From Paracoccus sp. DMF-8 (GTDB taxonomy: Bacteria; Pseudomonadota; Alphaproteobacteria; Rhodobacterales; Rhodobacteraceae), in assembly GCF_029309835.1 (NCBI RefSeq), contig NZ_JARJHL010000017.1, positions 372,001-436,000 on the forward strand: 64,000 nt of DNA. The letters run 5' to 3'. How positions within the stretch are numbered: the stretch's first letter is position 1; every line of letters starts with the position of its first letter. The notes beneath the pieces were generated by a model. That model had not been told where the DNA came from, ran no database searches, and worked only from the letters and a program-made list of their open reading frames with translations. This document shows positions 7,709 through 58,006 of this stretch, piece after piece. A program made the position numbers and the translations under genes.

Positions 7709-7768
7709 TAATATACCCGCAAATCACAGCAATGACAGTTTTACACGACAGGACAAAGGGGACATGAC

Positions 7769-32540: not shown

Positions 32541-32558
32541 CCGTATTTACCCTTATTA

Positions 32559-33399: not shown

Positions 33400-33427
33400 T
33401 AGACGGTACTGGCCGATGGACGCGGCA

Positions 33428-33699: not shown

Positions 33700-33768
33700 C
33701 CGCCTTGTGGTCCGACTTGATAGTGGCGCGGGTTTACGCCTGTGTCGTCGGGCAAGGAGGCGGGATGG

Positions 33769-36753: not shown

Positions 36754-37145
36754 TGCGCCGTGGCACGCCCGAGGCCGATCTTCAGCGCGCCGTCGTGCAG
36801 GCGCTGCGCATCGCCCTGCCCCGCACGGCCATCATCCATCACTGCGCCAACGAGGTGACCGAGGCCGGGCCCCGCGGGTCCAAGCGCCAAGCGATCCTCG
36901 TCGGCATGGGCGTCCATGCCGGGTTCGCCGATCTGATGGTGATCTGCGACGGCCGTGTCCTGTTCCTCGAACTGAAGGCGCCGAAAGGGCGCCTGCGGCC
37001 GGAACAGGAGGCATTCCGTGATGCCGTTCTGGCGCAAGGGTTCGGCTGGGCGCTGGTGCGCAGTCTCGACGATGCGCTGGGCGCGCTGGCCGATCACGGG
37101 TTCACCACGCGCATCGCCCCTGCCCCGCGGAGGCCCGCGCCATGA
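36750..37145 (+). CDS. VRR-NUC domain nuclease
   Basis: A 131-residue protein of the small stand-alone VRR-NUC (PD-(D/E)XK) class found in phages. The core is GMGVHAGFADLMVICDGRVLFLELKAPKGRL, with the active Asp and E-x-K. A Gln-rich C-terminal segment follows (RPEQEAFRDAVLAQGFGWALVRS). It is likely a structure-specific nuclease for phage recombination or replication. Its start overlaps the preceding frame and its stop overlaps the next gene by 4 bp. Confidence 0.85.
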   Translation: MMRRGTPEADLQRAVVQALRIALPRTAIIHHCANEVTEAGPRGSKRQAILVGMGVHAGFADLMVICDGRVLFLELKAPKGRLRPEQEAFRDAVLAQGFGWALVRSLDDALGALADHGFTTRIAPAPRRPAP

Positions 37146-38056
37146 GTCATGAGGCCACCAACTGGGCCATCAAGCAGCGCAGGCTGAAGCCGACGACCAA
37201 GATCGTGCTCTGGCATCTGTGCGACCGGTTCAACCCGGATTACGGCTGCTTTCCTTCGCAGGACCGGCTGGCGCATGACTGCGAGATCAGCCGGTCCACA
37301 CTGAACGATCACCTTGGCCAGCTCGAGGCGGTGGGCCTGTTGCGGCGCGTGCCGAGGCTCGATCCCGTGACCAAGCGTCAGCTGCCGACCCGCTACATCC
37401 CGGGGTTCGAGCCGGGCTTCACACCTGTGGCTGTAGCTCCGTGTCCGGAAATCGGACACGGGGATGGCACGAGGCCCGTGTCCGATTTTCCGGCCGACCC
37501 GTGTCCGGAAAATGCCGAAAGCCGTGTCCGGATTTCGGACACTAACTCTGTAAGGGAATCTCTAAGTAAACCAGTAAAGGAGGAGGAGGGCGCGCAGGCG
37601 CGCGGGGCGATCTCCGATGAGGTTTTCGGGAAGCTGCTGGCAGCGCTGGGCCTCGACCCCGTCGCCCTACCCAGCTGGTGGCAAGGCTGGCCGCCTCGGC
37701 TGCACGTCCAGCGCTGGCGGGACGAGCTGGGGCTGACCGAGGCGGAGATCATCGCCGCAGCCGAGGCCTCCCGCGAGGAGCATCCCGAACCGCCCGATGG
37801 GCCGAAGGCGCTGGACCGCGCCATGCAACGGGCGGCAGGGCGCAAGGTCGAGGATGCCGGGCGGAAACGGCGCAAGCCCAAGACGCCCTCCGCCCCGGCC
37901 GCCAAGCCGATCACAGACCTGCCCGCCTTCTATGCCGATCTGATCAACTCCGACCGATACCTGCCGGTCAGCGCGATCAGCAACACGATGCGCGATGCCA
38001 TGCTGGCACGTGGGTTGGTGACGGCCGAACGCATGCGCGAGCGAGGTGTTCGATGA
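37142..38056 (+). CDS. Helix-turn-helix replication-initiator-like phage protein
   Basis: A 304-residue protein. Residues 1-85 form a winged helix (IKQRRLKPTTKIVLWHLCDRFN, CFPSQDRLAHDCEISRSTLNDHLGQLEAVGLL) like those of phage replication proteins. A low-complexity middle (PCPEIGHGD, PVSDFPADPCPEN) is encoded by repeated GTGTCCG units. The C-terminal third is charged and helical. In lambdoid phages the origin lies inside the initiator gene, and the repeats here fit that design. The function is inferred, not proven. Confidence 0.6.
   Translation: MSHEATNWAIKQRRLKPTTKIVLWHLCDRFNPDYGCFPSQDRLAHDCEISRSTLNDHLGQLEAVGLLRRVPRLDPVTKRQLPTRYIPGFEPGFTPVAVAPCPEIGHGDGTRPVSDFPADPCPENAESRVRISDTNSVRESLSKPVKEEEGAQARGAISDEVFGKLLAALGLDPVALPSWWQGWPPRLHVQRWRDELGLTEAEIIAAAEASREEHPEPPDGPKALDRAMQRAAGRKVEDAGRKRRKPKTPSAPAAKPITDLPAFYADLINSDRYLPVSAISNTMRDAMLARGLVTAERMRERGVR
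37441..37542. repeat. Iteron-like GTGTCCG array (candidate replication origin or operator)
   Basis: Within 102 bp GTGTCCG occurs at 37441, 37478, 37501 and 37524. The first and last are each followed 5 bp later by the inverted CGGACAC, making two near-identical 19-bp palindromes (spacers GAAAT and GATTT). The array lies inside the HTH protein gene. Confidence 0.7.
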
Positions 38057-38730
38057 CACTGCAACGACCGATCGGCCGTGCGGGCAGTCGAGCCATTCAA
38101 CGTGCGTTGGGCGTGCAGGCGGCGCTGGAATGGGCGTTCCGGATCGAACAGGCGCAGCTGGAACTGCCGCTGCCCGCGGACATCACCGAGGAAGGCTTCG
38201 GCTTCGGCCTGGAATACGTCCTGCTCCAGCGCGCCGTGCTGGGCTGCAAGATCGATGGTGGCCAGCACAAGATCGGCGGCTACACCCACGAGGACGCTGA
38301 GGTCATCGCCGCCACTGTCGCCGGGATCCCCGACAGCCTCGGCGGCAAGCGCATGGCGATCCGCGTCGCCGAACTGGCCCGCGCCGGGCTGACGCCCGAC
38401 TGGATGCCCGGCGCCGTGCCGCGCTGCGTGCCCAGCATCGTGAAGCAGAACCAGCATGGCACGCATGCGGGCGCCATCGTCGTAGGCACGGAGCGCATCC
38501 GGGTTCGTGGTTCGGGCGCCCGTGCCACATGGAAGACCATCGACATCCTGGCCTGTCCGGTCACCTTCTCCCCCCACCCGCAGCAGATCAGGGCCGCCCG
38601 GCGTGGCTATGGCGACTGGTGGCAGGCGCTGAGCTGGGTTCGGGACGGGCTGATTGCGGGCGGGATGTTGCGGGAGGTTGAGGTGACAGGGGCGATGCCG
38701 AAGCCGCGGCCGTGGGAGGGGAGCCGGTGA
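38053..38730 (+). CDS. Conserved phage hypothetical protein
   Basis: A 225-residue protein starting with an ATG that overlaps the preceding stop by 4 bp. It begins MTLQRPIGRAGSRAIQRALG. It has a short acidic helical part, then KIDGGQHKIGGYTHEDAEVIAA and a basic C-terminal half (FSPHPQQIRAARRGYGDWWQAL). I do not recognise the family. Position at the end of the phage early operon suggests a replication or regulation accessory. Confidence 0.55.
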   Translation: MTLQRPIGRAGSRAIQRALGVQAALEWAFRIEQAQLELPLPADITEEGFGFGLEYVLLQRAVLGCKIDGGQHKIGGYTHEDAEVIAATVAGIPDSLGGKRMAIRVAELARAGLTPDWMPGAVPRCVPSIVKQNQHGTHAGAIVVGTERIRVRGSGARATWKTIDILACPVTFSPHPQQIRAARRGYGDWWQALSWVRDGLIAGGMLREVEVTGAMPKPRPWEGSR

Positions 38731-38786: not shown

Positions 38787-39290
38787 TCATGCCCATTCAG
38801 ACCCTACCGGGCCGCTTCTCCGGTGTTTGGGCGCCCCAATATCCGCCTCTCCGACTTCAAGCTCTCGACCATCACCATGAAGCCATCCCGAAACGACGTC
38901 CCGGACGGCTGCAACACCAGCCTCGGTTCGCAAGGCGCATTCCCAGATTGTCGCAACCCTCCAACCGGCCAGCAACAAAGCCGATCGAACTGCCCCGTCC
39001 CGCATTGCATTCGCGATGAACTTCGATGCCCAGAACTCCGGGCGTGTTGCCGGAGTGCTTGCGTAACGGCAGCCCGGGTGTCGGTGCCAGAAGCACCCGT
39101 GCACGAAAATGACGGCCTTGTATTTCGGCAGCACAAGATCCGGATTGCCGGGTATGCCTTTCGCATGGAGGCGGTAGCGGAAGCCCAGCGCGTGCAGGGA
39201 CCGCCGGAGCACCAGTTCCGGCTTCGTATCCTTTGCGCGGATGCCAGCCATCATCCGGGAACGGGTCTGGCTGTCGACGATGTCGGTCAT
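38787..39290 (-). CDS. vsr: Very short patch repair endonuclease Vsr
   Basis: A 167-residue Vsr protein. It begins MTDIVDSQTRSRMMAGIRAKDTKPE and has the core LHAKGIPGNPDLVLPKYKAVIFVHGCFWHRHPGC with the catalytic Asp and His. Zinc-site Cys and His are also present. Vsr nicks T:G mismatches that arise from deamination of 5-methylcytosine made by a partner methyltransferase. It is divergent from the dcm gene, with AGGAGG 4 bp before the ATG. The pairing indicates that the methylase modifies cytosine C5. Confidence 0.92.
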   Translation of the reverse strand: MTDIVDSQTRSRMMAGIRAKDTKPELVLRRSLHALGFRYRLHAKGIPGNPDLVLPKYKAVIFVHGCFWHRHPGCRYASTPATRPEFWASKFIANAMRDGAVRSALLLAGWRVATIWECALRTEAGVAAVRDVVSGWLHGDGRELEVGEADIGAPKHRRSGPVGSEWA

Positions 39291-39357
39291 TTGCCTCCTG
39301 GCCTCGGCCGATGGACCTGGTATACAGCCAGTGATCCGAATTCGAGAGGTCTCTGAT

Positions 39358-40911
39358 TTGCCAGCCACTTTCGGCATTGTCGATCTGTTTGCAGGTCCAG
39401 GCGGCCTTGGAGAGGGATTCGCCTCGCTTGATGTTGGCGGGCAGCACCCATTCCACATCGGAATTTCGGTAGAGAAAGAGGCATCGGCACATCGGACGCT
39501 GCGGCTGCGCGCCTTTCTGCGTGACCATGTTTCGCGACACGACGCCCTTCCGGAAGCCTTCGTGAAGTTCCATGCCGGTGTGACGGACGAACCGGACTGG
39601 TCAGAGGTAGACGCCGCAGCATGGACAGAGGCGACCACAGAAGCTCGCTGTCTTGAGCTTGGCAGTGATGCAGCCGCAACAGCCATCGATGAGGCTATCG
39701 GTCGGCTGCGACAGAGCTTCGACGACACGATCCTGATCGGCGGTCCACCCTGTCAGGCCTATTCGCTGGTCGGGCGGGCCCGTTCGCGCGGCAAGACGGA
39801 CTACGTCCCAGAGGAAGACCACCGGCATTACCTTTTCCGCGAATACATCCGGGTGCTGAAAGAACTTCGCCCGGCCGCTTTCGTCATGGAAAACGTCAAG
39901 GGCATGCTGTCCTCGACCGTCGAAAGCCGACTGGTCTTCGAGATGCTGATGGAAGACCTGGCTTCCCTGGGCACGGGTCACGGCCATCACTACGAGCTTC
40001 GGGCGATCCGCCTTGCAGACGGTATGGCCACCCTGCAAGAGGCGGCACAGCCATCCGACTTCATCGTGCGTGCCGAACAATTCGGTGTTCCGCAGCGCCG
40101 CCATCGCGTCATCATCGTCGGCATCAGGTCGGATTTGGCAACCCGAGCATCCGGCGCAAGCATCGCGGTGTCGTGCACTACCCGCACGGTCGATGAGACC
40201 ATCGGCAACATGCCGCCTCTGCGCAGCGGCATCAGCCGCGCGTCAGACACCGCCGAGGCATGGAAAAAGGAGGTCGCAGGGTTCGCCAAACTGCTCGCGA
40301 AGATCTTCAAGGGCGAGCCGGATGGCGCCCTGCGGCCCGAGTTTCTTGATGTCGTGGAACTCCTGAAGCTCGGCGCCGAAACCCGACGCTCCTCCGCCAT
40401 GCTTCACGCAGGCTATGGAACATCGAATGACGATCTGATGCGCTGGCTGGAGCGTCCCGGCTTGCGCGCGCTGACCCAGCACGAAACCGGGGGTCACATG
40501 GCCTCGGACCTCGGCCGCTACCTGTTTGCCGCAGTCTTCGGCAAGGTGCGTGGTTACAGCCCGAAGGCGGCCGACTTCCCGCTAGCCCTAAGCCCGGATC
40601 ACCGTAACTGGCACAGCGGTGTCTTCAACGACCGCTTTCGCGTCCAGCTTGCACACGAGCCTTCGACGACGGTTACCAGCCACATCTCGAAGGACGGGCA
40701 CTATTTCATCCACCCGGACCCGCTGCAATGCCGCAGCCTGACGGTGCGCGAGGCGGCGCGGCTGCAGACCTTCCCGGACGACTATCTCTTCCTCGGCAAC
40801 CGGACACAGCAGTATGTCCAGGTCGGAAATGCGGTCCCACCATTCCTGGCAAGACAGATTGCAGCGCTAGTCCATGCATCCCTGACAAAACCGGACACCC
40901 TCAACCTCTGA
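39358..40911 (+). CDS. DNA (cytosine-5) methyltransferase
   Basis: A protein of about 517 residues. Motif I is DLFAGPGGLGEGF, motif IV GGPPCQAYS with the catalytic Cys, motif VI MENVKGML, motif VIII QRRHRVIIVGI, motif IX RSLTVREAARLQTFPDDY and motif X VGNAVPP. The target-recognition region lies between VIII and IX. I choose the TTG at 39358, with GAGAGGT 8 bp upstream. A GTG at 39331 is possible; there is no ATG close to motif I. It would protect host DNA while the following genes act on unmodified DNA. Confidence 0.92.
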   Translation: MPATFGIVDLFAGPGGLGEGFASLDVGGQHPFHIGISVEKEASAHRTLRLRAFLRDHVSRHDALPEAFVKFHAGVTDEPDWSEVDAAAWTEATTEARCLELGSDAAATAIDEAIGRLRQSFDDTILIGGPPCQAYSLVGRARSRGKTDYVPEEDHRHYLFREYIRVLKELRPAAFVMENVKGMLSSTVESRLVFEMLMEDLASLGTGHGHHYELRAIRLADGMATLQEAAQPSDFIVRAEQFGVPQRRHRVIIVGIRSDLATRASGASIAVSCTTRTVDETIGNMPPLRSGISRASDTAEAWKKEVAGFAKLLAKIFKGEPDGALRPEFLDVVELLKLGAETRRSSAMLHAGYGTSNDDLMRWLERPGLRALTQHETGGHMASDLGRYLFAAVFGKVRGYSPKAADFPLALSPDHRNWHSGVFNDRFRVQLAHEPSTTVTSHISKDGHYFIHPDPLQCRSLTVREAARLQTFPDDYLFLGNRTQQYVQVGNAVPPFLARQIAALVHASLTKPDTLNL

Positions 40912-40984
40912 GGCACTTCGCGCACCTTGTAACGACGATCCGTTCGCGCAAGAGTAGATCGTGATCGTACTGCCAAGGGTTCGC

Positions 40985-42478
40985 ATGCAGGAAATTGTTG
41001 TTTCAAGACGGGCAGATGCCACTCCTCACGCCGCGGCATTGATCGAGGGTCTGAGGGATATCGGCTATTCTCTCGAAACGGCCATTTCAGACATCATCGA
41101 CAATTCCATCACCGCGGGCGCCCATCGGATCGAGATCGTCACAGAAACCTATTCGGACGAACCCTACATCGCGATCATCGACGATGGCCTGGGCATGACC
41201 GAAGACGAACTTGTCGCAGCAATGCGACCCGGCAGCAGGAACCCGCTGGCCACGCGTGATGAACCGGACCTCGGTCGGTTCGGCCTCGGCCTCAAGAGCG
41301 CCAGCTTCTCCCAGTGCCGTCGGCTCACGGTCGTGTCCCGGCGTTACGGGCAAACCAGCGCAGCAATCTGGGATCTTGATGATGTTGCCGAACGGAACGA
41401 ATGGGCGGTTCAATTGCCCGATCAATTCGATCTCATCCCGGGCATCGAGAAGCTGGGGCAGCATGGCACGCTTGTGCTCTGGCAGAAACTTGACCGCCTG
41501 ACTGGCGGTTATTCCCACAATGCAGCCAAGCGCGCCGAGGTCATCAACCAGAGGATCGCGGAAACAGAGCGCCACCTGCGCCTCGTGTTTCATCGGTTCA
41601 TGGAGGATGCCAAGCCGCTGCGCATTCTCCTAAACGGGCGACTGCTTCGCCCACTTGATCCGTTTGCCCGAAAGAACCCCGCGACCATTTCAGACCCGGA
41701 AGAAAAGCTGACCCTGATCAGGGGAGATGTAGAGATCCAGAGCTTCACGCTTCCCCATCATAAGCAGATGGGAAAGACGGAATGGGAGGATATAGGCGGG
41801 CCGGAGGGTCACCTGAAATCGCAGGGCTTCTACCTCTATCGCGGCAAGCGCCTGATCCTGCACGGCACATGGTTTGGTCTGTGCCGCCAATCGGAACTGA
41901 CCAAGCTGTCCCGGGTCAGGATCGACATTCCCAACAGCATGGACGCCGACTGGAAGATCGACGTCAAGAAATCCTCAGCACAACTGCCGCCAGTCGTGCG
42001 CGATCGCCTGAGAAAGGTCATCGAGCGCATCCTCGCCGGTTCAAAGCGCACCTACAGCAAGCGGGGACAGAAGCTCGTCGATCATGAACGGCTGCCCATG
42101 TGGCATCGGATTCAGGCAGATGGGCAGATACGCTACCGCCCGAACATCGAACACCCGGCGTTTGCCGATTTCGCCGAAAGCCTGCCCCCGGACCTTCGGC
42201 GCGGCTTCTTCAACTGCATTGCTCTGGTCGGGGCGTCATTGCCCATCGAAACGTTGCACGCAGACATGGCAGGCACGGCCGAACAGATCGTTACGGATCG
42301 GGTGGACGAAGACGCGCTTGCCCAAGCCGTGCAGGCAACCCTCTCCGTCCTTCTGGGCGCGCGCAAGGACATCAAAGAAATCAAGGCACTGATGAAGGAC
42401 GTCGATCCGTTCAGATCGGCCTGGGAAGATACGGAACGCATCATCGCGGCGACGATCGAGACGAAGGAAGACAAGTGA
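40985..42478 (+). CDS. GHKL ATPase, MORC/MutL-like, of a restriction-type system
   Basis: A 497-residue protein with an N-terminal Bergerat ATP-binding fold. The N box is AISDIIDNSITA, the G1 box IIDDGLGM (near residue 66) and the G2 box GRFGLGLKSASF. An S5-like transducer domain and a helical C-terminal part follow. It is not MutL proper, because it lacks the MutL C-terminal domain. MutL/MORC-like ATPases beside Z1, REase and AIPR genes were described by Iyer, Abhiman and Aravind (2008) as predicted restriction components. The ATG at 40985 has AAGGG 5 bp upstream. The stop overlaps the Z1 start. Confidence 0.85.
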   Translation: MQEIVVSRRADATPHAAALIEGLRDIGYSLETAISDIIDNSITAGAHRIEIVTETYSDEPYIAIIDDGLGMTEDELVAAMRPGSRNPLATRDEPDLGRFGLGLKSASFSQCRRLTVVSRRYGQTSAAIWDLDDVAERNEWAVQLPDQFDLIPGIEKLGQHGTLVLWQKLDRLTGGYSHNAAKRAEVINQRIAETERHLRLVFHRFMEDAKPLRILLNGRLLRPLDPFARKNPATISDPEEKLTLIRGDVEIQSFTLPHHKQMGKTEWEDIGGPEGHLKSQGFYLYRGKRLILHGTWFGLCRQSELTKLSRVRIDIPNSMDADWKIDVKKSSAQLPPVVRDRLRKVIERILAGSKRTYSKRGQKLVDHERLPMWHRIQADGQIRYRPNIEHPAFADFAESLPPDLRRGFFNCIALVGASLPIETLHADMAGTAEQIVTDRVDEDALAQAVQATLSVLLGARKDIKEIKALMKDVDPFRSAWEDTERIIAATIETKEDK

Positions 42479-45219
42479 AGCAGATCCTGAGCAGCCTCGA
42501 GGGCATGACGTCCATGTACATGGCGTCGCAGCCCGGCCCCCACACAGCCCAGTCGATCCGGGAGATCATCGCCCAACTGCGTGTCATGCCGATGTTCGCG
42601 GGCCAGGTCGAAGATGGTGACGCAGAGGAACTCGCACGCCTGATCGAGGAGAAATACGGGATCAGCATGGGCTTCGGCGCCATCGTCGATGCCGAGGACT
42701 TCCGCCCTCGGCTGCATGACGCCCGGATCAACGGCGAGATCGGGGATTTCTACTGGGGCAGGTATCGCAAGCTCCTGAACCTGAAGGGACTGCCGAAGTC
42801 AGTGATCGACGCGACGGACGAGGTTACGGATCGGGTGCTGGATCGTCTGGGCGATCCGCGCAACCTGAGCCCATGGAGCCGCCGCGGCATGGTCGTGGGC
42901 CATGTGCAAAGCGGCAAGACCGCCAACTACACCGGGCTCATCTGCAAGGCGGCGGATGCGGGCTATCGCCTGATCGTCGTGATCGCGGGCATCCACAACA
43001 ACCTGCGGAACCAGACGCAGGCGCGGATCGACGAGGGCTTCATCGGCCGGGATACCGGGCGACTAGCCCATGCCAACAGGGCGCAACGCCAGAAGATCAT
43101 CGGTGTCGGTCGGTTTGGTGACAGCCAGTTCCCCGTCTCCCTGACCAACACGATCAAGGACTTCAACAAGGACACGGCTACCTCGAACACCAGCCAGATC
43201 GGGCAATACAACGTGCCCGTCGTGCTGGTGATCAAGAAGAACTCCAGCACGCTGAAGAACCTGCTGGAATGGCTGGAGGAACACTCTGCAACCGGGGCTA
43301 CCAAGATGGTCAGCCAGCCCATGCTGCTGATCGATGACGAGGCCGACAATGCCTCGATCAACACGGCCTACGCACGCGACGAGGTTACCCGGATCAATGG
43401 GCAGCTCCGGCAGCTGCTGTCGATGTTCCACCGCAGCTGCTATGTCGGATACACGGCGACGCCGTTTGCCAACATCTTCATCGACCCGGACACCGATGAT
43501 GATGCCCTTAAGCAGGACCTGTTCCCGCGGCACTTCATCATCGGCCTCGACGCGCCGTCGAACTACTTCGGTGCGCAGAAGGTGTTTCTCGATGCCCGTG
43601 AACGGCATGTCCGTTTGATCGACGACAACGAGGACATCCTTCCAATGAAGCACAAGATCGACCATCCGGTCGACGTGCTGCCGGAAAGCCTCATCCGTGC
43701 CGTGCGCGCATTTGTCGTCGCGCGGGCGATCCGGAACGCCCGGGGCCAGCAGGGGACCCATGCCTCGATGCTGATCAACGCCTCGCGCTTTACGGATGTT
43801 CAGGGGCGGTTGCGGTCCCGGGTAGCCGATGTGGTCGACAGGATACGGGCCGCCGTCGCAGTCGATGGGGCCAAGGGCCATGCTGCGCTTCGCAGCCTGG
43901 AGATTGCCGCCCTGCATGCGGTCTGGGAGTCCGAGTTCACCGAGGCCGAGGGCGCGGACTGGCCCGCCGTCCAGGCCCGTTTGCACGAGGTTCTGGTTGC
44001 CGCGCGTGTTGTCGAGGTCAACGCGTCAAAGCGGTCGCAGCCGCTCGACTATGACCAAGGTGGGGAACATGGCGTGACGGTGATTGCCGTCGGGGGCTTC
44101 TCCCTCTCGCGCGGCCTGACGCTGGAAGGACTGACAATCAGCTACTTCCTGCGGAACTCCATGATGTATGACACCCTGATGCAAATGGGCCGGTGGTTCG
44201 GTTACCGGCCGGGCTACGAGGATCTGTGCCGGATCTGGATCCCTGCCGATGGCGTTGGCTGGTATGCCCATATCCACGAGGCGATGGACGACCTGCAGAC
44301 CCAGCTGAAGCGCATGGAACTTGCCAAGGCGACGCCCGAGCAGTTCGGCCTCGCCGTCCGCAGTCACCCGGAATCGCTGATCGTGACGGCGAGGAACAAG
44401 ATGGGAACGGGGAAGGAATTCCCCATGAAGGTCAGCCTTGAAGAGAAACTGGTCGAAACGACACGCATCGTTGCCGAGGAGGGCCTGATGCGGCGCAACT
44501 TTGCGGCAGGCGAGGCACTGCTGCAGGACTTGGTTTCAGATGGCCTTGCGTTCGAGAAGCGAAGCCGGGGTCACCTGGTGAAGGGCGTGGCCGTCGGGCG
44601 GATCGACGCTTTCCTGCGGACCTTCCGTACGGATCCGGCGAATGTGCCAGCCGATCTTCTGACGGACCCCTGGCTGATCCGCGACTACATCGCCGCCCGG
44701 GCCGACAGCGAATTGCGGCTGTGGGACGTATTTATTGCCAGTTCGACCGGAAAGGAGTTCGATCCGGTCGCCTTCGGGCATCTGGATCTCGTGCCATACG
44801 GGCGGTCGGTCGACCCTCGCGACTTCGCAAAGGGCGTTCTGACGATCAGCGGCACAAGCCGCCGAGTCGGTTCGGCCGAGGATGAACGCGAAGGGCTGAC
44901 GGACGAACAGATCGCGGCGGCCGAGGACGCCTTCAGGCGCGACCGTCCCGAAGCAAAACCGAAGTCCTCCATAAACCCCAGTTACTACAGGTCGGTAGAG
45001 GGACGACGACCGCTGTTGATCTTGCGGCTCGTGCGGCCGAAGGTCGAAGATGCCGATGGCAAGACCGTCTACGGGAAGGACATCCTTGCCTGGGGTCTTT
45101 CCTTCCCGTCCAGCAAGATCGCAGGCGGCACGGTGGAATACATCGTCAACACCATCCGCATGCGCGAGATGTTCGGCGATGAAGAGATCGAGGAGGAGGC
45201 GCGCGGTGATACCGACTGA
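42475..45219 (+). CDS. Z1-domain superfamily II helicase-like protein
   Basis: A 914-residue protein. The Walker A-type loop is GHVQSGKTANYTG (near 142), the DEAD-type Walker B LLIDDEADNAS (near 286) and motif III YVGYTATPFANIF (near 325). The Z1 domain follows, with YFLRNSMMYDTLMQMGRWFGYRPGYEDLCRIW as the helicase C-terminal equivalent. I start at the GTG overlapping the ATPase stop (GTGA), with GAAGGA upstream; an ATG ten codons later is an alternative. It probably translocates on or remodels DNA for the nuclease encoded next. The unusually short overlaps throughout indicate a single operon. Confidence 0.88.
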   Translation: MKQILSSLEGMTSMYMASQPGPHTAQSIREIIAQLRVMPMFAGQVEDGDAEELARLIEEKYGISMGFGAIVDAEDFRPRLHDARINGEIGDFYWGRYRKLLNLKGLPKSVIDATDEVTDRVLDRLGDPRNLSPWSRRGMVVGHVQSGKTANYTGLICKAADAGYRLIVVIAGIHNNLRNQTQARIDEGFIGRDTGRLAHANRAQRQKIIGVGRFGDSQFPVSLTNTIKDFNKDTATSNTSQIGQYNVPVVLVIKKNSSTLKNLLEWLEEHSATGATKMVSQPMLLIDDEADNASINTAYARDEVTRINGQLRQLLSMFHRSCYVGYTATPFANIFIDPDTDDDALKQDLFPRHFIIGLDAPSNYFGAQKVFLDARERHVRLIDDNEDILPMKHKIDHPVDVLPESLIRAVRAFVVARAIRNARGQQGTHASMLINASRFTDVQGRLRSRVADVVDRIRAAVAVDGAKGHAALRSLEIAALHAVWESEFTEAEGADWPAVQARLHEVLVAARVVEVNASKRSQPLDYDQGGEHGVTVIAVGGFSLSRGLTLEGLTISYFLRNSMMYDTLMQMGRWFGYRPGYEDLCRIWIPADGVGWYAHIHEAMDDLQTQLKRMELAKATPEQFGLAVRSHPESLIVTARNKMGTGKEFPMKVSLEEKLVETTRIVAEEGLMRRNFAAGEALLQDLVSDGLAFEKRSRGHLVKGVAVGRIDAFLRTFRTDPANVPADLLTDPWLIRDYIAARADSELRLWDVFIASSTGKEFDPVAFGHLDLVPYGRSVDPRDFAKGVLTISGTSRRVGSAEDEREGLTDEQIAAAEDAFRRDRPEAKPKSSINPSYYRSVEGRRPLLILRLVRPKVEDADGKTVYGKDILAWGLSFPSSKIAGGTVEYIVNTIRMREMFGDEEIEEEARGDTD

Positions 45220-46180
45220 CACGCCATGGTCCGGCCTCGAGGCCGGAAAGGTGGACACGCGCCGGGTTTCGGCATCGGCACGGTGGAACTGGTTCTGGGC
45301 AGTGATGCCGCGGGCGGATGTGGCCCTTGTCCTGCAATTGTCCAACCTGCCGAAACCCGCCCCAGACCTGCCAAAGCTGCGTAACCTCGAAATCCGGTTC
45401 CAGACGCTGCCGCGTGGTCCGATCCTCTACATCCGGCTCAAGGACAGCGCCCAGCTTGAATTGTTCGAGACCCTGTGCCGCGATGTGATCGCGGCAGGCG
45501 AGCTTGCAGAGGCCGAGCCCGAAGCCTTGGAGCGCGCCATCGGCCGCACCTTCCGCTGGCACTATCTGCTACGCGGCGGAAAGCTCGAGGTCTTGTCGGA
45601 GGAAGCCCAGAAGGGCCTGATCGGCGAGATCGAAGTGTTGAAGCTGCTGATTGCCACGCTCGGCGCCAAACCGGCGTTGACCGCATGGACGGGCCCTTCC
45701 GGCGCACCAAAGGATTTCGAACTGAAGGCCGACTGCATCGAGGTCAAGGCGCGGCGCGGGGCTTCGCAGCCCTTCGTGAAGATCGCGAACGAATTCCAGC
45801 TGGCCGACGTGCCGGACCGTCGCCTCTGGCTGGCCGTGCTGGCCGTCGACAAGGTGCAGCCGCCGCACGGCCTGACGCTGACCGAATATGTCTCGGAAGT
45901 CACCGAGCTTCTTGAACGGACCGAACCTTCGGCCATCATGGACTGGGATCTGCACCTGGCTGACGCCGGATTTGACATCCTGCACGACTATTCGGCCTGG
46001 CGCTGGATCGTGTCGTCCCCCGACTTTCATGCCGTGACCAAGGATTTTCCGCGGATTGCTGCGCCCGTGCCGCTTGGACTGTCCGCGGTTTCCTACGCCC
46101 TCGCCCTTTCTGCCTGCACGCCATTCCGGACGGAGTGGGGCGCAGTGCAGGAAAAGCTGAACGAAGCAGACCAGACATGA
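45206..46180 (+). CDS. PD-(D/E)XK motif protein (DUF4420)
   Basis: A 324-residue protein. The nuclease core is in the middle: GLIGEIEVLKLLI gives the helix Glu, and PKDFELKADCIEVKARRG gives the D-x(n)-E-x-K active site (residues about 171-183). A GTG at 45206, inside the end of the Z1 gene and 7 bp after AGGAGGAGG, is the best start. The overlap with AIPR at its 3' end is 4 bp. It is the probable DNA-cutting subunit of the locus. Confidence 0.85.
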   Translation: MIPTDTPWSGLEAGKVDTRRVSASARWNWFWAVMPRADVALVLQLSNLPKPAPDLPKLRNLEIRFQTLPRGPILYIRLKDSAQLELFETLCRDVIAAGELAEAEPEALERAIGRTFRWHYLLRGGKLEVLSEEAQKGLIGEIEVLKLLIATLGAKPALTAWTGPSGAPKDFELKADCIEVKARRGASQPFVKIANEFQLADVPDRRLWLAVLAVDKVQPPHGLTLTEYVSEVTELLERTEPSAIMDWDLHLADAGFDILHDYSAWRWIVSSPDFHAVTKDFPRIAAPVPLGLSAVSYALALSACTPFRTEWGAVQEKLNEADQT

Positions 46181-48246
46181 GCGAACTCGACGAGTATCAT
46201 CAGAACCTGATTGCCGATATCCGCCGCGAAGCGGATGCCAGCGGCGTTTTCCCTGTGGAAGCCTTCTTTGACCGGATGACCGAGCGCCTGACCGAGGCCG
46301 GTGAACTGGAAGTCGCAGACCGCGCCTATTACCAGAGCGGTGAAGGCGGCCAGAGACTGCGGATTGACGGATATGCAGGTGACCCGCGCGACGGCGAAGG
46401 TGTTCTGGGGCTGATCGTCTGCGACTTTGCCGACAGCGACGCTGTCCAGACCTTTGGCAAGGGGGATGTGCCCCCGATCCTGAACCCACTGATCCGCTTT
46501 CTGAAGAAAGCAAAGACCGAGGAATTCCGCGACTCGCTGAACGAGGCCAACCCCGCTTTTCAGGTCTCGGACCTCATCATCACTACGTGGTCGCAGGTCA
46601 CGAAGGTCAAGTTGATCCTTATTTCCAACCGGCAGTACATCGGCCGCGACGATACGGTGAAACTGGCGGAAATCGGCGAGGTGCCGATTACGTGGTCGGT
46701 CTGGGATCTGGCACGCTTCGAGCGGTTCGACCGCTCGGGACAGGCCCGTGAGGACATGGTCATCGACTTTGCCAAGGATTTCCGGGGCACCCCTTCCGGC
46801 ACTCCAAGCGTCGCAATCGGGCGCGGCTCTTGAAAGCTACCTCCTTATCGTGCCGGGGGAGCAGTTGGCCGCGATCTATGACAAGTGGGGCGCACGCCTT
46901 CTCGAGGCCAACGTCCGGTCTTTCCTTCAGGCAAGGGCCAAGACCAACAAGGGCATCCAGAAGACCATCAAGGACGAACCTGAACTCTTCTTCCCCTACA
47001 ACAACGGGCTGTCGGCCACCGCCGATGCCGTTTCGTGCGTGCGGACAGATGACGGGTTGGGTGTAGCCTCGATCAGCAACCTGCAGATCGTCAACGGCGC
47101 CCAGACAACCGGGTCGATCCACGCCGGGCTGAAGTCGGCAAAGGAACAGCTCCCGCAAGTGTTCGTGCAGATGAAACTGACCGTCGTTCCTCCCGACAGG
47201 TCCGAGGACATCGTGCCGAAGATTTCGGAATACGCGAACACCCAGAACAAAGTGAACGCTGCCGATTTCTTCTCGAACCATCCCTTCCACATCCGGATGG
47301 AACAGTTCTCGCGCAGCGTCCTCTTCCCGGCGCGTGCTGGCGAGCGTCACGATACCAAGTGGTTCTACGAGCGTTCGCGCGGGCAGTTCATCAATGCCCG
47401 CGCCAAGCTGACACCAGCCCAGCTGAAGAAGTTCGATCTGGAGTTCCCGAAAACACAGCTCTTCAGCAAGACCGATCTCGCCAAGTTCGAGTTTTCGGCA
47501 GTCGGCCAGCCGCACATCGTTTCGCGAGGGGCCCAGAAGAACTTCGCGGAATTCGCCAAGGACATCGGCGAAGCATGGTCCAAGAGCGACGCCCGGTATG
47601 ACGAGCTCTGGTACAAGCGTCTGATCTCGAAGGCGATCGTGTTTCGATGGCTCGAGGCCGAGGTTCCGAAGCAGCCTTGGTACGAAGGTGGCTATCGCGC
47701 CAACATCGTTACCTACGCCATGGCCAAGGTGTTCCACGATGCAAATGGAGAGAAGCAGGTCCTCGACCTTGACGCAATCTGGCGGCGGCAGTCTGTTCCA
47801 GATGCCCTCCAGCGCGCGCTGCTTCTGGCGGCCGCAGAGGCACACGACGTCATCACTCACCCTCCCGCAGGTGTCCGCAACATGTCGGAATGGGCGAAGC
47901 AGCAGGCCTGCTGGAACGGGATGAAGGGCCGAACGTTGAACTACGACGATGACTTCGACACCTGCCTGACTCTCTGGAGACTTCGCGCGGCAAGGAAAAA
48001 GACGAAAAGAAGAGGACGAAAGAAGACGAAGGGATTTTGGCACAGACAACAGTTGTCAATCTGGGCGCAGCCTTCTGGAAGGATGTGCTCACTTGGGGAC
48101 AAGCGCGGAAGAAGTTGGACCCAAAGGAACAACAGATTATTGGCGTGTGCGCATCGATGCCGCGCCTTACACCTTCACCCGATCAATCACGGCTCGCGCT
48201 GACCGTATTGGGACGCATAAAAGATCAGGGTTTCGGAGAAGGATAG
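46177..48246 (+). pseudogene. AIPR-family protein gene, two single-base frameshifts
   Basis: The N-terminal part (MSELDEYHQNLIADIRREAD) runs in one frame to about 46790. The AIPR domain then continues in the next frame: GAALESYLLIVPGEQLAAIYDKWGARLLEANVRSFLQ, FFPYNNGLSATADA, ISNLQIVNGAQTTGSI. Near 47970 the protein returns to the first frame for its C terminus (AQTTVVNLGAAFWKDVLTWG, ending at 48246). One extra C in the CCCC at 46790-46793 and one missing base near 47968 explain both. Repaired, it is about 689 residues. AIPR proteins are linked to abortive phage infection. It is the last gene of the operon. Confidence 0.85.
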
Positions 48247-48624
48247 CGCTCTGCAGGCGGGCCCCCTCCTCTGGTTCCTCCTCGGCGCTGAACGTATGCG
48301 GGGGGGCGCAGCGCGGCGGTTCGCTAGCGTGAGGCGTTTTCACCGGGGAAGCCAGGCGGAAGCCACCTTGTGCGCTGACGCCGGAATTCGTGAGTCAGAT
48401 CAGCGACTTGCGGAATCACGATCTGGCCGGGGTGGATTCCCAGCGGGAAGCCAGGGAAGCCACCTTCGGGGAAGCCAGGTGGCCGGAAGCCACCGCCGAA
48501 AGCCAATTCGTTAGAAGCCGTTGAATCCGCTTCACTTTTTGGGCTGACAGATGTGCCCCCATTGACCTACCCCTTGATCATCGAAGAATTGCGCCTGGAG
48601 GAACCCCTCTCGGGCGCTTTTCAT
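48247..48624. other. Region between the defence locus and IS66, with short repeats
   Basis: No gene is seen. Six copies of GGAAGCCA (48347, 48358, 48446, 48455, 48470, 48485) occur with short variable spacers. The last bases before the IS (CTTTTCAT) are its target duplication. Confidence 0.6.
48347..48492. repeat. Degenerate GGAAGCCA repeats
   Basis: Six direct copies of GGAAGCCA, mostly followed by GG or CC, in two clusters (2 and 4 copies). This gives alternating GGGAAGCCAGG and GGAAGCCACC units. Function unknown. Confidence 0.6.
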
Positions 48625-48644
48625 GTAACCGTCCGGTCTGACCG

Positions 48645-50144
48645 CTATCCGTTCCATCGCCATGGCAACAGGTCGTCGACCTTGGTGATCTTGTAGTCCG
48701 GGATGCGGGCGAGGGTATCGGCGAGCCAGGCGTTTGGATCGACGGCGTTGAGCTTGGCCGTCTCGATCAGGGTGTAGGCGATTGCGGCGGCCTTGCCGCC
48801 TGCTTCCGAGCCGACGAAGAGGTAATTCTTCCGCCCGAGGGCGATGGCGCGCATGCCGCGTTCGGCGGTGTTGTTGTCCAACTCTAGGATGCCGTGGTCG
48901 AGGTAGGGGCGCAAGCGTTCCATCCGCGCCAGGGCATAGCGGATGGCGGCCGCGAGCGGGGATTTGCCCGAGATTTTGGTCAGTTGCATGGCCAGCCATC
49001 GTTCCAGATCGTCGAAGACCGGGGCAGCATGGGCCTTTCGCAGTTCGGCACGGCGGTCTGGCAGAGCGCCTCTGGCCTCCTTCTCGACGACGTAGAGTTG
49101 CGCGATCCGGCCGATGGCCTCTTCGGCGATGGGGGAGCCTTGCGAGCGGTGAATGTCTACGAACTTGCGCCGCACATGCGCCATGCAGGCGACCTCGCGG
49201 ATGGCACCGGAACGGTAGAGGTCCTCGAACCCGGCATAGCCGTCGGCGTGCATCCAGCCGCGGAACCGGGCGAGATGGTCCTTGGGGTGTTGGCCTTTGC
49301 GGTCGCCCGAGAAGCGATACCAGGCGGCCGGGGGCGCATCGCCGCCCGGCGGGCGCTCATCACGGGCATAGGTCCAGAGCCGGGCGGTCTGGGTCTTGCC
49401 GGTGCCGGGAGCGAGCATGCTGACGGGCGTGTCATCGGCGAAGATCGCCTCGGCCGACAGGACATGGCGGCCGATGGCATCGGCCAGCGGTTCCAGCAGG
49501 GCGGTGCTCTTGCCAACCCAGTCGGCCAGGGTCGAGCGGTTGAGGTCGAGCCCCTCACGGTCGAAGATCTGGCTCTGGCGATAGAGGGGCAGATGGTCGG
49601 CATATTTGCTGACCAGCACATGAGCGAGCAAGCCCGGCCCCGGACGGCCGCGCTCGATGGGGCGCGAGGGCAGCGCGGCCTGGACGAAGCGTTCACAGCA
49701 GGCACAGGTCAGGCGAGGCCGCACGATCCGGTTCACGATGAACCGCCCCGGCACATATTCCAGCTCCTCCGTCACATCCTCGCCGATCCGGCGCAGACGC
49801 CCGCCGCACTCGGCACAGGCATCGGCGCCGGGTGTCAATTCCACTTCCATGCGCGGGATGTGATCCGGGATCGGGCGGCGCTTGGGTTTGTCCTTCTCCT
49901 CGATGTCGGGCAGCTTCATGCGCGCCGTCATCGCGGCGGCGGCGATCTCGCTGGTCTCGAGCGCCAATCGCAGCTGCTCGGCGGCCTCGGACGACGCCCC
50001 GAACCGGTGCGCCCGGTGCCCGGCCAACTGGTGCCGGAGCTTCTCGATCAGGATCGCCTGCGCCCTCACCTCGGCCAGAAGCCGCGCGGTGAAACTGCGC
50101 AGCTCCTCGGGGTCATCCGGCAAGGTCAAGGTCTGACTGAGCAT
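48645..50144 (-). CDS. tnpC: IS66 transposase TnpC
   Basis: A 499-residue IS66 transposase. It has an N-terminal leucine-rich coiled segment (LRSFTARLLAEVRAQAILIEKLRHQL), a zinc-finger region (CAECGGRLRR, CACCERF) and the DDE catalytic domain with IFADDTPVSM, MHADGYAGFE and LDNNTAERGMR. Length and domains are complete. It moves the element together with TnpA and TnpB. Confidence 0.93.
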   Translation of the reverse strand: MLSQTLTLPDDPEELRSFTARLLAEVRAQAILIEKLRHQLAGHRAHRFGASSEAAEQLRLALETSEIAAAAMTARMKLPDIEEKDKPKRRPIPDHIPRMEVELTPGADACAECGGRLRRIGEDVTEELEYVPGRFIVNRIVRPRLTCACCERFVQAALPSRPIERGRPGPGLLAHVLVSKYADHLPLYRQSQIFDREGLDLNRSTLADWVGKSTALLEPLADAIGRHVLSAEAIFADDTPVSMLAPGTGKTQTARLWTYARDERPPGGDAPPAAWYRFSGDRKGQHPKDHLARFRGWMHADGYAGFEDLYRSGAIREVACMAHVRRKFVDIHRSQGSPIAEEAIGRIAQLYVVEKEARGALPDRRAELRKAHAAPVFDDLERWLAMQLTKISGKSPLAAAIRYALARMERLRPYLDHGILELDNNTAERGMRAIALGRKNYLFVGSEAGGKAAAIAYTLIETAKLNAVDPNAWLADTLARIPDYKITKVDDLLPWRWNG

Positions 50145-50203
50145 GCCGGGAGTTTATCTTATTGGATTTCTTGTGGGAATCCTCTCCTCTCCGGAGCGGC
50201 GGA

Positions 50204-50551
50204 TTATCCCGCAGCCAATGGCCGCCATGTCCGCTGTGGTGCCCGCCAGTCGATCCCCTCCAGCAGCATCGACAGTTGCGCGGGCGTCAGCGCCACCTTG
50301 CCTTCCTTGGCCGAGGGCCAGACGAACCGGCCTCTCTCCAGCCGCTTCATGAACAGGCAGGCCCCTTGCCCGTCCCACCAGATGATCTTCACGAGGTCAC
50401 CCCGGCGGCCGCGGAAGACGAACAGATGCCCGGTAAACGGGTCCTGCTTCAGCACCGCCTCGGCCTGCGCCGCCAAGGCCGCAAAGCCCCTGCGCATGTC
50501 GGTCACCCCGGCCGCCAACCAGACCCGCGTGCTGACCGGGACCGGGATCAC
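50204..50551 (-). CDS. tnpB: IS66 accessory protein TnpB
   Basis: A 115-residue IS66 Orf2 protein. [20 protein letters not shown] and [22 protein letters not shown] are the signature segments. It overlaps tnpA by 4 bp. It is required with TnpA for transposition in studied IS66 members. Confidence 0.92.
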
Positions 50552-50940
50552 GCCGAAAGCCCCCGGATCAGCCGCACCAGCGCCTCGGGATCATAGCTGC
50601 CACTGATCCGCATCCGATGCCCGCCCGCCAGTTCGATCTCGATGTGGTTGTCGGCGGCGGGCGCTGCCACTGGTGCCTTCACCTCCGCGACAATCTCCAC
50701 CGGCAGAAAGCGCGCCCTCCGACGACGATGCCATCGAAGCCGGGTCCGGCGCATAGCGCGGATCGCGCCGCCATTTGAAGATCAGGTTCGCATTCACCGA
50801 ATAGCGCAGCGCCACCAGGCCACCGACACGCCCCGCGCAGCCGTCTGCATGCAGATCGACCGCTTCTCGTCATCCGTCCAGAGCCGCCTCGTTCGTCGCG
50901 CCACATCCGCACCTTGGTGTCCACCATCGTTAGTGGACAC
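50548..50940 (-). pseudogene. tnpA: IS66 tnpA, two frameshifts
   Basis: Starting at a GTG at 50940, the frame reads STNDGGHQGADVARRTRRLW, then DDEKRSICMQTAARGVSVA, typical of IS66 TnpA. It then shifts to ALRYSVNANLIFKWRRDPRYAPDP and shifts again to FLPVEIVAEVK and [21 protein letters not shown] at the end. Each break fits one missing base (near 50823 and 50717). The HTH is therefore split, and the element may be immobile unless helped in trans. Confidence 0.8.
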
Positions 50941-51028
50941 TATCCCGCACCAGCATCACGCGGCAGAGCGGTCAGACCGGACGGTTACCTTTTCGTTTCC
51001 CCTCCCCCACATCGCGAGCCCCATCCCA

Positions 51029-52291
51029 TGGACCTCGTCTTCGCGCCGAGCCAGGTTGAGTCTTGGCCGATTGCCCGGCTGCGCCCGTATGCCCGCAATG
51101 CCAAGATGCATGGCGACGACCAGGTGGCGAAGATCGCCGCCAGCATGGCCAAGTTCGGCTGGACCGTGCCCTGCATGGTGGCCGGCGACGGCGAGCTGAT
51201 CGCGGGCCATGGCCGGGTGCTGGCGGCCACCATGCTCGGGCTGACCGAGGTGCCGGTGATCCGGCTCAGTCATCTGGACGAGGCGGAACGCCGGGCCTAC
51301 CGGATCGCCGACAACAAGCTGACGGAACTGGGCGAATGGGACGAGGCCATGCTCCGCGACGAGATCGCAGGGCTGCTGGCCGAGGATTTCGACCTGACAC
51401 TCCTTGGCATCAGCGACGATGACCTCGACGCGCTGCTGCGGGATCCGGAGGCGCTGGGCGGCGATGGTCCGGTCGAGGGCGAGGACGATGTTCCGGAAAT
51501 GCCGGTCACGCCGGTGTCGCTGCCGGGCGATCTCTGGCAACTGGGCGCGCACCGGCTTATCTGCGGCGACAGCACTGCGGCCGATGTGGTCGGGCGGCTG
51601 CTGGGCGATGTGCGCCCCCAACTGATGGTCACCGACCCGCCCTATGGCGTGGAGTACGATCCCTCCCGGCGCAACGCCGCGGGCGCAGCCAAGACCAAGC
51701 GCACCGGCCAGGTGCTGAACGACGACCGGGCAGACTGGCGCGAGGCATGGGCGCTGTTCCCCGGCGACGTCGCCTATGTCTGGCACGGCGCGCTGCATGC
51801 CGGGACGGTGGCAGACAGCCACGGCGGCCGCGGGTTTCGCCATCCGGTCGCAGATCATCTGGGCGAAGGACCGGCTGGTCCTCAGCCGCGGCGACTATCA
51901 CTGGCAGCACGAACCCTGCTGGTATGCTGTGCGCGCCAAGGGAAAGGGTCACTGGGCCGGGGACCGCAAGCAGACCACGCTGTGGCAGATCGCCAACCGG
52001 GATCAGGATGCCGACACGGTCCACGGCACCCAGAAGCCGGTCGAGTGCATGCGCCGTCCGATCCTCAACAACTCGAGCCCGGGCGAGGCGGTCTATGAGC
52101 CTTTCATGGGATCGGGCACAACACTGATCGCGGCCGAAACCACCGGGCGGGTGTGCTTCGGCGTGGAACTGAACCCGGCCTATGTCGATGTCGCCATCGA
52201 GCGCTGGCAATCCTTCACGGGTCACGAGGCGGTGCTGGCGGAGACCGGCGAGACTTACGCCGCCCTCAAGTCCAGGAGACTGGCGGCATGA
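51029..52291 (+). pseudogene. ParB-domain DNA methyltransferase (phage), frameshifted
   Basis: The N-terminal ParB/Srx-like domain (SWPIARLRPYARNAKMHGDD, GELIAGHGRVLAATMLGL) covers about residues 1-90. The beta-class amino-methyltransferase part has TDPPYGVEYD (motif IV) first and EPFMGSGTTLIAAE (motif I) later. Reading shifts near 51820: the first frame decays after ALHAGTVADS, and the next resumes AAGFAIRSQIIWAKDRLV. One extra base explains it. Repaired length is about 420 residues. Such genes stand just before the terminase in many Rhodobacteraceae prophages. Confidence 0.82.
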
Positions 52292-52791
52292 ACTGCACCC
52301 TTGCCCTCCGGCACGCCGCAACCAGCCATGACGAAGTCGCCGCCCTTGCCAGCGCGGTGACCGAGTTCCAGGAGAAGATCTGCGACGCGAAGGGCTATCC
52401 CCGGATCAATGCGTTGCAACAGGATTTGCAGGCGACGCGCCAGCGCCTGGCCGTGCTGTTCGGCGAACGCCATGGCTGGCACCTGTCCAAGTCCGCCTTC
52501 TCGCCCTCGGTGCTGGCGCGGGGCGGATTGTTCAACGGGCGCGGCTATCACGTCGATCCCTGGCCGCGCGAGCTTGTCGACCACGGGTATTTCTACCGCA
52601 GGGACCGGAAGGCCGCCGCGGTGGCCGCGCATCTCTACGGTACTTTCGATGCCGCGAAGCGTCAGGACACCGAGGCCACGGCTGCGCTTCACGGGCTTCG
52701 CGTCACCTGGCCCGAGGATTTCCCGAGCTGGTATCTCCCCGGCCGAACCACGCTGATAGTCTGCACACCGCTGGCTGGACCTACGTCATGA
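52288..52791 (+). CDS. Phage hypothetical protein
   Basis: A 167-residue protein. The ATG overlaps the methyltransferase stop by 4 bp and the stop overlaps the terminase start. It contains FQEKICDAKGYPRINALQQDL near the N terminus and RNGRGYHVDPWPRELVDHGYF-like aromatic segments in the middle. No family is recognised. Position between methyltransferase and terminase suggests a packaging-region accessory. Confidence 0.55.
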   Translation: MNCTLALRHAATSHDEVAALASAVTEFQEKICDAKGYPRINALQQDLQATRQRLAVLFGERHGWHLSKSAFSPSVLARGGLFNGRGYHVDPWPRELVDHGYFYRRDRKAAAVAAHLYGTFDAAKRQDTEATAALHGLRVTWPEDFPSWYLPGRTTLIVCTPLAGPTS

Positions 52792-55147: not shown

Positions 55148-55150
55148 ACG

Positions 55151-57953: not shown

Positions 57954-58006
57954 CAATTCTGCCCGCGCTGGGCGCCCCATCCCCAACATCCTCGGAGACT
58001 CGAACC

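Follow-up and report, generated by a model that had tools for sequence, protein, structure and literature searches.

A six-gene locus in Paracoccus sp. DMF-8, at positions 38,787 to 48,246 of a 64,000-nucleotide stretch (contig NZ_JARJHL010000017.1, positions 372,001 to 436,000, forward strand; hereafter, the window), is probably a prophage-borne, methylation-licensed MORC–Z1 restriction system built from two separable modules. The first is a marking pair, Vsr and the cytosine methyltransferase Dcm; the second, referred to here as the effectors, comprises a MORC-type GHKL ATPase, a Z1 protein, a DUF4420 nuclease and AIPR. The system is MZA-like and of the type II of Miller, Stern and Burstein (2022; PMC9523054). 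Because that set has been published as a putative defence system, and the related mzaABCDE is called validated, the locus belongs to an already described kind and the family is not new. What seems new, from comparison of homologous loci, is that the marking pair and the effectors are separate, exchangeable modules. Titles and the opening lines of abstracts in the open-access literature gave no earlier report of swapping between Vsr–Dcm and effectors, or of the exchangeable cassette that we describe in Z1.

Gene families and gene order

The six genes are as follows.

38787 to 39290, minus strand: vsr, 167 amino acids, T:G mismatch endonuclease; Pfam Vsr and TIGR00632 above cut-off; ATG start chosen
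39331 (start approximate) to 40911, plus strand: dcm, 526 amino acids, cytosine-C5 methyltransferase; Pfam DNA_methylase and TIGR00675 above cut-off
40961 to 42478, plus strand: MORC-type GHKL ATPase (MzaB-like); Pfam HATPase_c_3; PADLOC MzaB, E 4e-82
42505 to 45219, plus strand: Z1 protein (MzaC-like), 904 amino acids, superfamily 2 (SF2) helicase/translocase with Z1 domain and C-domain; Pfam Z1, E 1e-78; PADLOC MzaC
45305 to 46180, plus strand: DUF4420 PD-(D/E)XK nuclease (MzaD-like), 291 amino acids; Pfam DUF4420, E 8e-74
46177 to 48246, plus strand: AIPR (MzaE-like), with AIPR_N and AIPR; broken by two frame changes

A sequence-only reading of this DNA had proposed these six families, and profile searches bore out all of them, with Pfam bit scores well over the cut-offs (Vsr 106, DNA_methylase 152, HATPase_c_3 113, Z1 265, DUF4420 249, AIPR_N 115 and AIPR 337). 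Vsr also matches the solved Vsr structure 1cw0 (E 1e-30), and the top PADLOC match of Dcm is DrmMII, the cytosine methylase of DISARM (E 7e-81). One DISARM DrmMII methylates CCWGG, which in its deaminated form is the site of action of Escherichia coli Vsr. The effector genes are named MzaB, MzaC, MzaD and MzaE, in that order, by PADLOC; NCBIfam gives MzaB–E too, far under its equivalog cut-offs (327/850, 526/1500 and 92/420 bits for the first three, and 282 + 42 bits against 1050 for MzaE, scored in two pieces of the broken gene). Several starts were wrong owing to over-long open reading frames, and were corrected for Vsr, Dcm, Z1, DUF4420 and AIPR. vsr is divergent from dcm, their start codons lying 40 bp apart, and the conserved part of the GHKL ATPase starts at about ATG 40985. 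The operon had been described as tightly overlapping, which holds for DUF4420 and AIPR (4 bp); elsewhere between dcm and AIPR the genes are separated by gaps of 26–85 bp.

DUF4420, GHKL, Vsr and Dcm all retain residues typical of their active sites. In DUF4420, residues E108, D137, E146 and K148 are kept in at least 97% of 85 rows, and E108 would be the first E of an E-D-ExK motif. The Z1 protein has the motifs GHVQSGKT, DDEAD and DTLMQMGRWFG, the last invariant in 62 aligned sequences. A link to the MORC operons predicted by Iyer, Abhiman and Aravind (2008; PMC2292703) had been suggested and is upheld by two motifs: GFYLYRGKRLI of the GHKL protein matches their MORC motif GhXhhpXXRhl, and DTLMQMGRWFG fits DThhQXuRhFG of the SFII helicase in their third operon type. 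That type also has an E-D-ExK nuclease and is often accompanied by cytosine methylases and Vsr, all of which the window shares, and AIPR is named in the legend of Fig. 2 of that paper. Its passages on these operons predict operon types and mention neither swapping with DISARM nor cassette exchange.

In the account of Miller and colleagues, type II consists of Z1, a PD-(D/E)XK protein (printed as DUF4220), a cytosine methylase and AIPR, is associated with MORC, and has approximately 20% identity to mzaBCDE, being distantly like mzaABCDE, in which MzaA is a sigma factor (PMC9523054). The window has each of the type II components, AIPR in broken form. The section on type II describes no Vsr (DNA repair endonucleases are given for type I), prophage slot, module swaps or Z1 cassette. 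The mzaABCDE system (Gao et al. 2020, known here through NCBIfam and PADLOC names and PMC9523054) shares MzaB–E homologues in the same order, but the window scores far under the equivalog cut-offs and has Dcm and Vsr beside the module. No MzaA was found among the PADLOC matches of the seven locus open reading frames (for Dcm, the best 25 of 56 matches), with neighbouring genes outside the scan, and no DISARM DrmA or DrmB was found in the same seven frames. The likeness to DISARM lies in the Dcm protein and in a relative described below. CglI and NgoAVII (PMC4267653) similarly combine an SF2–Z1–C ATPase, a cytosine methylase and a separate nuclease, but, as described there, their nuclease is a phospholipase D (PLD) plus B3-like protein and they have three genes, so without a MORC protein or AIPR.

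Relatives were taken from a Z1 scan of genomes (the best 80 of 126 loci) and from IMG/VR (6 loci), making 87 with the window; individual loci are given L numbers. GHKL, Z1, DUF4420 and AIPR lie on one strand and in one order in 82 of the 87, and contig ends cut the remaining 5. Because effector order and strand are kept to this degree, the set is not a product of chance; conservation in other genomes, on which the sequence-only reading had made its case depend, is observed for the effectors. Both Dcm and Vsr are also in the stretch in 60 of the 82 complete effector loci; as these loci were found through Z1, they do not give the frequency of the other genes without Z1. Dcm is upstream and co-directional in 30 of the 60, downstream and convergent in another 29 (a script count of 25, plus L063–L065 and L084, in which it overlaps the end of AIPR by a few bases) and downstream and co-directional in 1 (L019). 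The earlier view of the six genes as one set stands for the families and the effector order, but the set divides into two separable modules, Vsr–Dcm and GHKL–Z1–DUF4420–AIPR. A Z1 match at E 0.001 occurs in 10 of 41 relatives’ genomes, own genome included. Among all loci named here, L081, L094, L163 and L223 duplicate L001; L091, L159 and L162 duplicate L082; L161 duplicates L022, L228 duplicates L005, L234 duplicates L030 and L171 duplicates L134 (same contig); and L172 and L230 share sequence.

Structure models were read with alignments of 62 of 87 Z1 rows and 54 of 83 AIPR rows. The Z1 model (mean predicted local distance difference test (pLDDT) 75, predicted template modelling (pTM) score 0.56) matches SF2 helicases over residues 59–617 (best Z 14.4, Mfd). 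In the AIPR model, made for L001 (pLDDT 84, pTM 0.47), residues 1–190 match PD-(D/E)XK proteins (AF1548, Z 8.7; FokI, Z 7.8) and residues 215–363 match ParB-N (Z 6.5) and, weakly, SspE (Z ~4); Foldseek alone returned nothing for this model at E 0.001. The usual catalytic lysine was not seen in the AIPR N-domain, in which D83 is invariant (54/54) and position 85 is variable. As leads from weak matches, these suggest a PD-(D/E)XK-like N-domain that lacks the usual lysine, followed by a ParB/SspE-like middle. AIPR had previously been cast as an abortive arm, a putative role to which its family name points.

Exchange of effectors and of a Z1 cassette

Three effector modules occur in the same prophage slot behind Vsr–Dcm pairs that are ~90% identical: the window type, a divergent MZA-like module (L171, from IMG/VR) and a DISARM-like module (L160, from a genome of the same genus). 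L171 is 96% identical to the window in Vsr and 90% in Dcm, and just 29–41% identical in GHKL, Z1, DUF4420 and AIPR. L160 is 93% identical in Vsr and 91% in Dcm, after which it encodes a UvrD-like helicase, DrmA (E 3e-220), DrmB (E 1e-75) and a NERD-helicase; no DrmC was recognized in this module. The exchanged DNA is bounded by two seams.

41018 to 41031, no strand: left seam, where DNA homology stops (41018 for L171, 41031 for L160)
48261 to 48262, no strand: right seam, where homology restarts (48261 for L171, 48262 for L160), 15 bp past the AIPR stop

The two relatives agree to within 13 bp on the left and 1 bp on the right. The left seam falls in the first 11–16 codons of the MzaB-like gene (counted from ATG 40985), and these leftover start codons are possibly a scar, a hint that the window-type module preceded the others. 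Site-specific recombination found no support, as no direct or inverted repeats of at least 10 bases were present at either seam (stretches of ~200–240 bases from the window, L160, L171 and L001).

The same pairing of similar Dcm with dissimilar effectors extends beyond the slot. At E 1e-60 or better, 39 of the 394 genomes sampled from the family gave a Dcm match; IMG/VR added 31 loci, and flanks were taken for 20 of 41 Dcm places besides the window (those at or above 71% identity along most of the protein). Next to Dcm at 70% identity or higher were window-type modules, two more types that are MZA-like but divergent, and one ‘55%’ type (L241); DISARM-like modules in L160, L173, L176, L233 and L240; and an SspF–SspG–SspH-like set (L239), PDC-M33A (L227) and a set with MzaC-like and M33A-like proteins (L225). 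No effector query matched in L165 (one open reading frame scanned), L170, L178 or L189, which are left without an effector label; L164, L166–L169, L226, L231, L238 and L242 end less than 2 kb from dcm, and L236 ends ~3.4 kb after it. In L239 (5704–15373), the SspF–SspG–SspH-like genes are convergent to the Dcm–Vsr pair, with ~20 bp between them; SspF, SspG and SspH are normally partners of phosphorothioation.

In a tree of 49 chosen Dcm rows (L172 and L230, with identical Dcm, were both kept; other rows of the distant group were left out), the five DISARM rows require five changes, all five forced by well-supported branches, and are most simply explained by five separate acquisitions of DISARM. 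Across all eight effector labels there are 14 changes (minimum 7); set against a shuffled mean of 24, this indicates that effector type is therefore partly inherited with Dcm too. At the level of DNA, the sister pairs L241/L240 and L235/L227, which have different effectors, are homologous over Vsr–Dcm only. In L237/L233, likewise sisters with different effectors, homology covers Vsr–Dcm and a further 0.9 kb that lies ~10.6 kb away, and the 8.4 kb of DNA shared by L009 and L173 stops 43 bp short of the end of the dcm match. Residues 300–488 of Dcm, presumably the recognition region if the usual C5-methylase layout applies, are 87–96% identical across six pairs (four sister pairs and two window pairs).

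A second, finer exchange affects the C-terminal part of the Z1 protein.

44437 to 45108, plus strand: exchangeable Z1 cassette, approximately amino acids 645–868 (~220 residues), marked by a sharp drop in identity and incongruent trees

In the pairs L005/L015, L007/L011 and L022/L001, the operon DNA is mostly 80–100% identical, whereas the cassette is 45–70% identical with conserved ends. Identity is also reduced over the first 450 bp of AIPR in L005/L015 (66–72%), and the other two pairs have further dips to 76–78% outside the cassette. Among 84 Z1 sequences, 63 pairs have cores at least 95% identical, and in 21 of these the cassettes are below 60% (near-copies included). The distant subfamily shows cassette exchange as well (L028/L029, L033/L036, L034/L055, L031 and L035), and L031 and L083 have cassettes 93% alike on cores 85% alike. 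Core and cassette each reject the tree of the other (28 sequences; approximately unbiased (AU) test, P = 1e-72 and 5e-4). Fast drift does not explain this pattern: some pairs combine cores that are 95–97% alike with cassettes that are 42–60% alike, and within-class ratios of non-synonymous to synonymous substitution (dN/dS; 13 chosen pairs) of 0.06–0.25 in the cassette against 0.01–0.08 in the core indicate purifying selection. The cassette has no significant Pfam or PDB sequence match.

Identity of the cassette is nearly independent of that of the core (r 0.18), nor does it follow any window of Dcm, Vsr, GHKL or DUF4420, in 21 of 24 chosen loci (the window was dropped for its broken AIPR, L003 for its missing Vsr and L006 for its cut Vsr). 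No site in Dcm, GHKL, DUF4420 or AIPR separates the two cassette classes at the threshold applied (12 and 16 loci), and one weak site in Vsr does. Judged by these alignments, the cassette is exchanged independently of Dcm. A second variable end is present in L012 and L017, in which Z1 residues 1–50 are 38% identical to the window and the next 150 residues are 74–98% identical.

A defence slot in a partial prophage

The locus lies inside what looks, from its gene content, like a partial prophage, with an integrase (33742–35040) and a replication O-like gene (37142–38056) on the left and TerL, portal and protease genes (52788–58224) on the right. The prophage cargo position given by the sequence-only reading agrees with relatives: phage DNA matches on both sides in L001, L007, L021, L022 and L082, and on the right in L011, whose contig begins too late for the left. 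Three features delimit the surroundings of the operon.

38053 to 38730, plus strand: left anchor gene of the prophage hotspot; present in 48 IMG/VR loci and, counting the source genome, in 37 of 101 genomes of the genus
48625 to 50988, minus strand: IS66 element just downstream of AIPR, separating the operon from the phage ParB-methyltransferase gene; its TnpC and TnpB score above cut-offs
51028 to 52288, plus strand: right anchor, phage ParB-N6/N4 methyltransferase gene, split here by one frame change

The ends of the IS66 element are inverted, with an 8-bp target copy that agrees at 7 positions, and the right anchor is supported by a Pfam N6_N4_Mtase match in the L160 homologue. In other prophages, the cargo between the left anchor and the ParB-methyltransferase gene varies, and in stretches that contain both anchors the gap measures 0.4–9.9 kb. 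We scanned one or more large proteins from each of 17 of the 26 slot stretches, some of which include the left anchor only (20 proteins, E up to 1e-10). The cargo consisted of five type I restriction–modification-like systems (L108 weak), five type III restriction–modification systems, one weak type IIG-like system, one Argonaute, one CBASS-type cyclase, one divergent MZA-like system, one SNF2 helicase set with MORC and AIPR, and two without a match. The slot is a defence hotspot. It resembles the prophage antiviral hotspots of Rousset (2022; PMC9122126) in that two conserved phage genes flank a defence cargo that varies; the hotspots described there differ in phage family and slot, with cargo of ~1–5 kb versus up to 9.9 kb here. 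In the same slot, L116 (10890–19514) carries a further mix of the same parts. Its SNF2 helicase and HNH protein stand with another cytosine methylase, a Vsr and a MORC-type ATPase, and its AIPR (49% to L001) is convergent.

Elsewhere in the window, a second ParB-like N-terminus (52788–53036) is fused to the terminase, where L001, L007 and L011 hold ~4 kb more. Arsenic genes (an Acr3-like transporter, 59474–60487, and ArsA, 61672–63414) start ~1.2 kb past the head protease of the phage. Tail genes were not recognized among the partly scanned open reading frames between the head genes and the arsenic genes. Two 850-bp inverted copies of an IS4/5-family element (6864–7713 and 32554–33403, 100% complementary) bracket a 24.8-kb piece of host DNA, in which genes for a dienelactone hydrolase and a TonB receptor are found. 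The left anchor recurs as a second copy (91%) 9.7 kb past the window (G000:C17:445716–446357), and there may be a second prophage of the same family near the window.

The copy in the window looks damaged. AIPR is spread over three frames (46177–46833, 46748–48202, used to ~48037, and 48037–48246), with frame changes near 46790 and near 48037; the gene is broken or mis-assembled at two places, in line with the earlier mention of a ‘repaired operon’, which implied a damaged AIPR. Programmed frameshifting is rejected because in all 82 relatives from which it was extracted, AIPR reads through as a single open frame of 680 amino acids or longer. Unless the frame changes are assembly errors, the broken AIPR may leave this copy inactive. 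Decay of the locus into a non-functional remnant is, for this genome, a serious possibility, although one we lean against, and it is compatible with a restriction system of the proposed kind. The two frame changes in AIPR, the one in the neighbouring phage methylase gene, the loss of ~4 kb, by comparison with L001, L007 and L011, that fused TerL to the ParB-like N-terminus, the IS66 insertion and the lack of recognized tail genes all read as signs of decay; however, Vsr, Dcm, GHKL, Z1 and DUF4420 are all open with conserved motifs, and assembly errors could explain the frame changes. The source genome (4.05 Mb, 18 contigs) is 84.5% complete. An assembly ridden with insertions and deletions is rejected as the cause of this low completeness, as rpoB had no match in the source genome and was matched in 14 of 14 control genomes (10 over cut-off); sequence is therefore missing from the assembly, and local errors stay possible. 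As far as its reading frames indicate, the copy may be only partly active now, with a marking pair that looks intact.

Proposed mechanism and its alternatives

We infer the licensing by 5mC, and each biochemical step that follows, from the gene families and their exchange; the self-marking by cytosine methylation that was proposed earlier is supported in this sense. Dcm would mark host and prophage DNA with 5mC at its motif, and Vsr would repair the T:G mismatches that arise from 5mC deamination, limiting the mutagenic cost. The MORC-type GHKL protein would serve as an ATP-gated DNA clamp or loop-former, and the Z1 protein would be an ATP-driven SF2 translocase that patrols or loops DNA with it. 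DUF4420 would be the nuclease that cuts, and AIPR would be an accessory DNA-acting subunit, the effectors together acting on DNA without the mark. Since unrelated effectors are served by near-identical Vsr–Dcm pairs, they probably recognize the mark on DNA and do not contact the methylase. There are precedents for such a mechanism: as reported, the ATPase of DrmAB is lowered by 5mC DNA (PMC9142583), and the Z1-domain ATPase of CglI requires unmethylated cognate DNA together with its R protein, the nuclease (PMC4267653).

A broader proposal is that of a portable, effector-agnostic self-mark. The 2-kb Vsr–Dcm cassette would license unrelated machines (MORC–Z1, DISARM and SspFGH-like), whole effectors would change at fixed seams without re-marking of the genome, and exchange of the Z1 cassette would retune recognition by MORC–Z1. 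We hold this tentatively, at a little under even chances.

Several observations weigh against the proposed system. The PADLOC matches are family names and not tested functions, and the broken AIPR means that the system may be dead here. Dcm plus Vsr are absent from the stretch in 22 of the 82 complete effector loci (some cut by contig ends), because of which the effectors might not depend on 5mC, and in some loci Dcm and Vsr are at opposite ends of the operon (L063–L065 and L069). One sister pair, L237/L233, has DNA in common beyond Vsr–Dcm. Serratia DISARM methylases, as described in PMC9142583, have motifs other than the CCWGG given above for DrmMII. The role of the Z1 cassette is a guess, and it possibly has a partner inside the operon: among 57 windows across six proteins, four AIPR windows correlate with the cassette at uncorrected P < 0.05 (strongest, residues 401–450, P = 0.002, and 301–350, P = 0.010, both uncorrected), as do some core Z1 windows.

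Some of the same observations would fit a Vsr–Dcm pair that is autonomous and mobile, as an orphan methylase used for anti-restriction or addiction that often lands beside defence genes, with effectors that work without it by sensing phage DNA structure or a phage protein. The homology confined to Vsr–Dcm in L241/L240 and L235/L227, the effector loci without both genes, the pairs that are not adjacent and the independent variation of the Z1 cassette are all in keeping with such an element. We nevertheless consider it unlikely, as 60 of the 82 complete loci have both genes, with Dcm in two recurrent orientations, the swap within the prophage kept Vsr–Dcm and exchanged the effectors only, and DISARM, one of the modules swapped in, often has such a cytosine methylase in published descriptions.

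Returning to the MORC–Z1 system, its Z1 cassette would face something outside the operon, such as a phage feature or an anti-restriction inhibitor, rather than the Dcm motif. Ordinary specificity switching, in which the cassette is a sequence-reading domain and Dcm residues 301–350 change with it, is improbable: both are among the most variable regions, but none of 10 Dcm windows is correlated with the cassette once overall identity has been corrected for (all r ≤ 0.00, 21 loci), and Dcm residues 320–400 are 90% (L022/L001) and 83% (L005/L015) identical where the cassettes are 52% and 51% identical.

If the portable self-mark is correct, one methylation mark serves several unrelated defence machines, which would explain how a new defence can be acquired without prior self-protection of the genome, and would make repression by 5mC a rule common to DISARM and MZA-like systems. 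Closely related prophages with a common mark and different effectors would then be natural experiments, and the ~220-residue Z1 cassette would be a specific candidate for a sensor or an inhibitor-escape surface.

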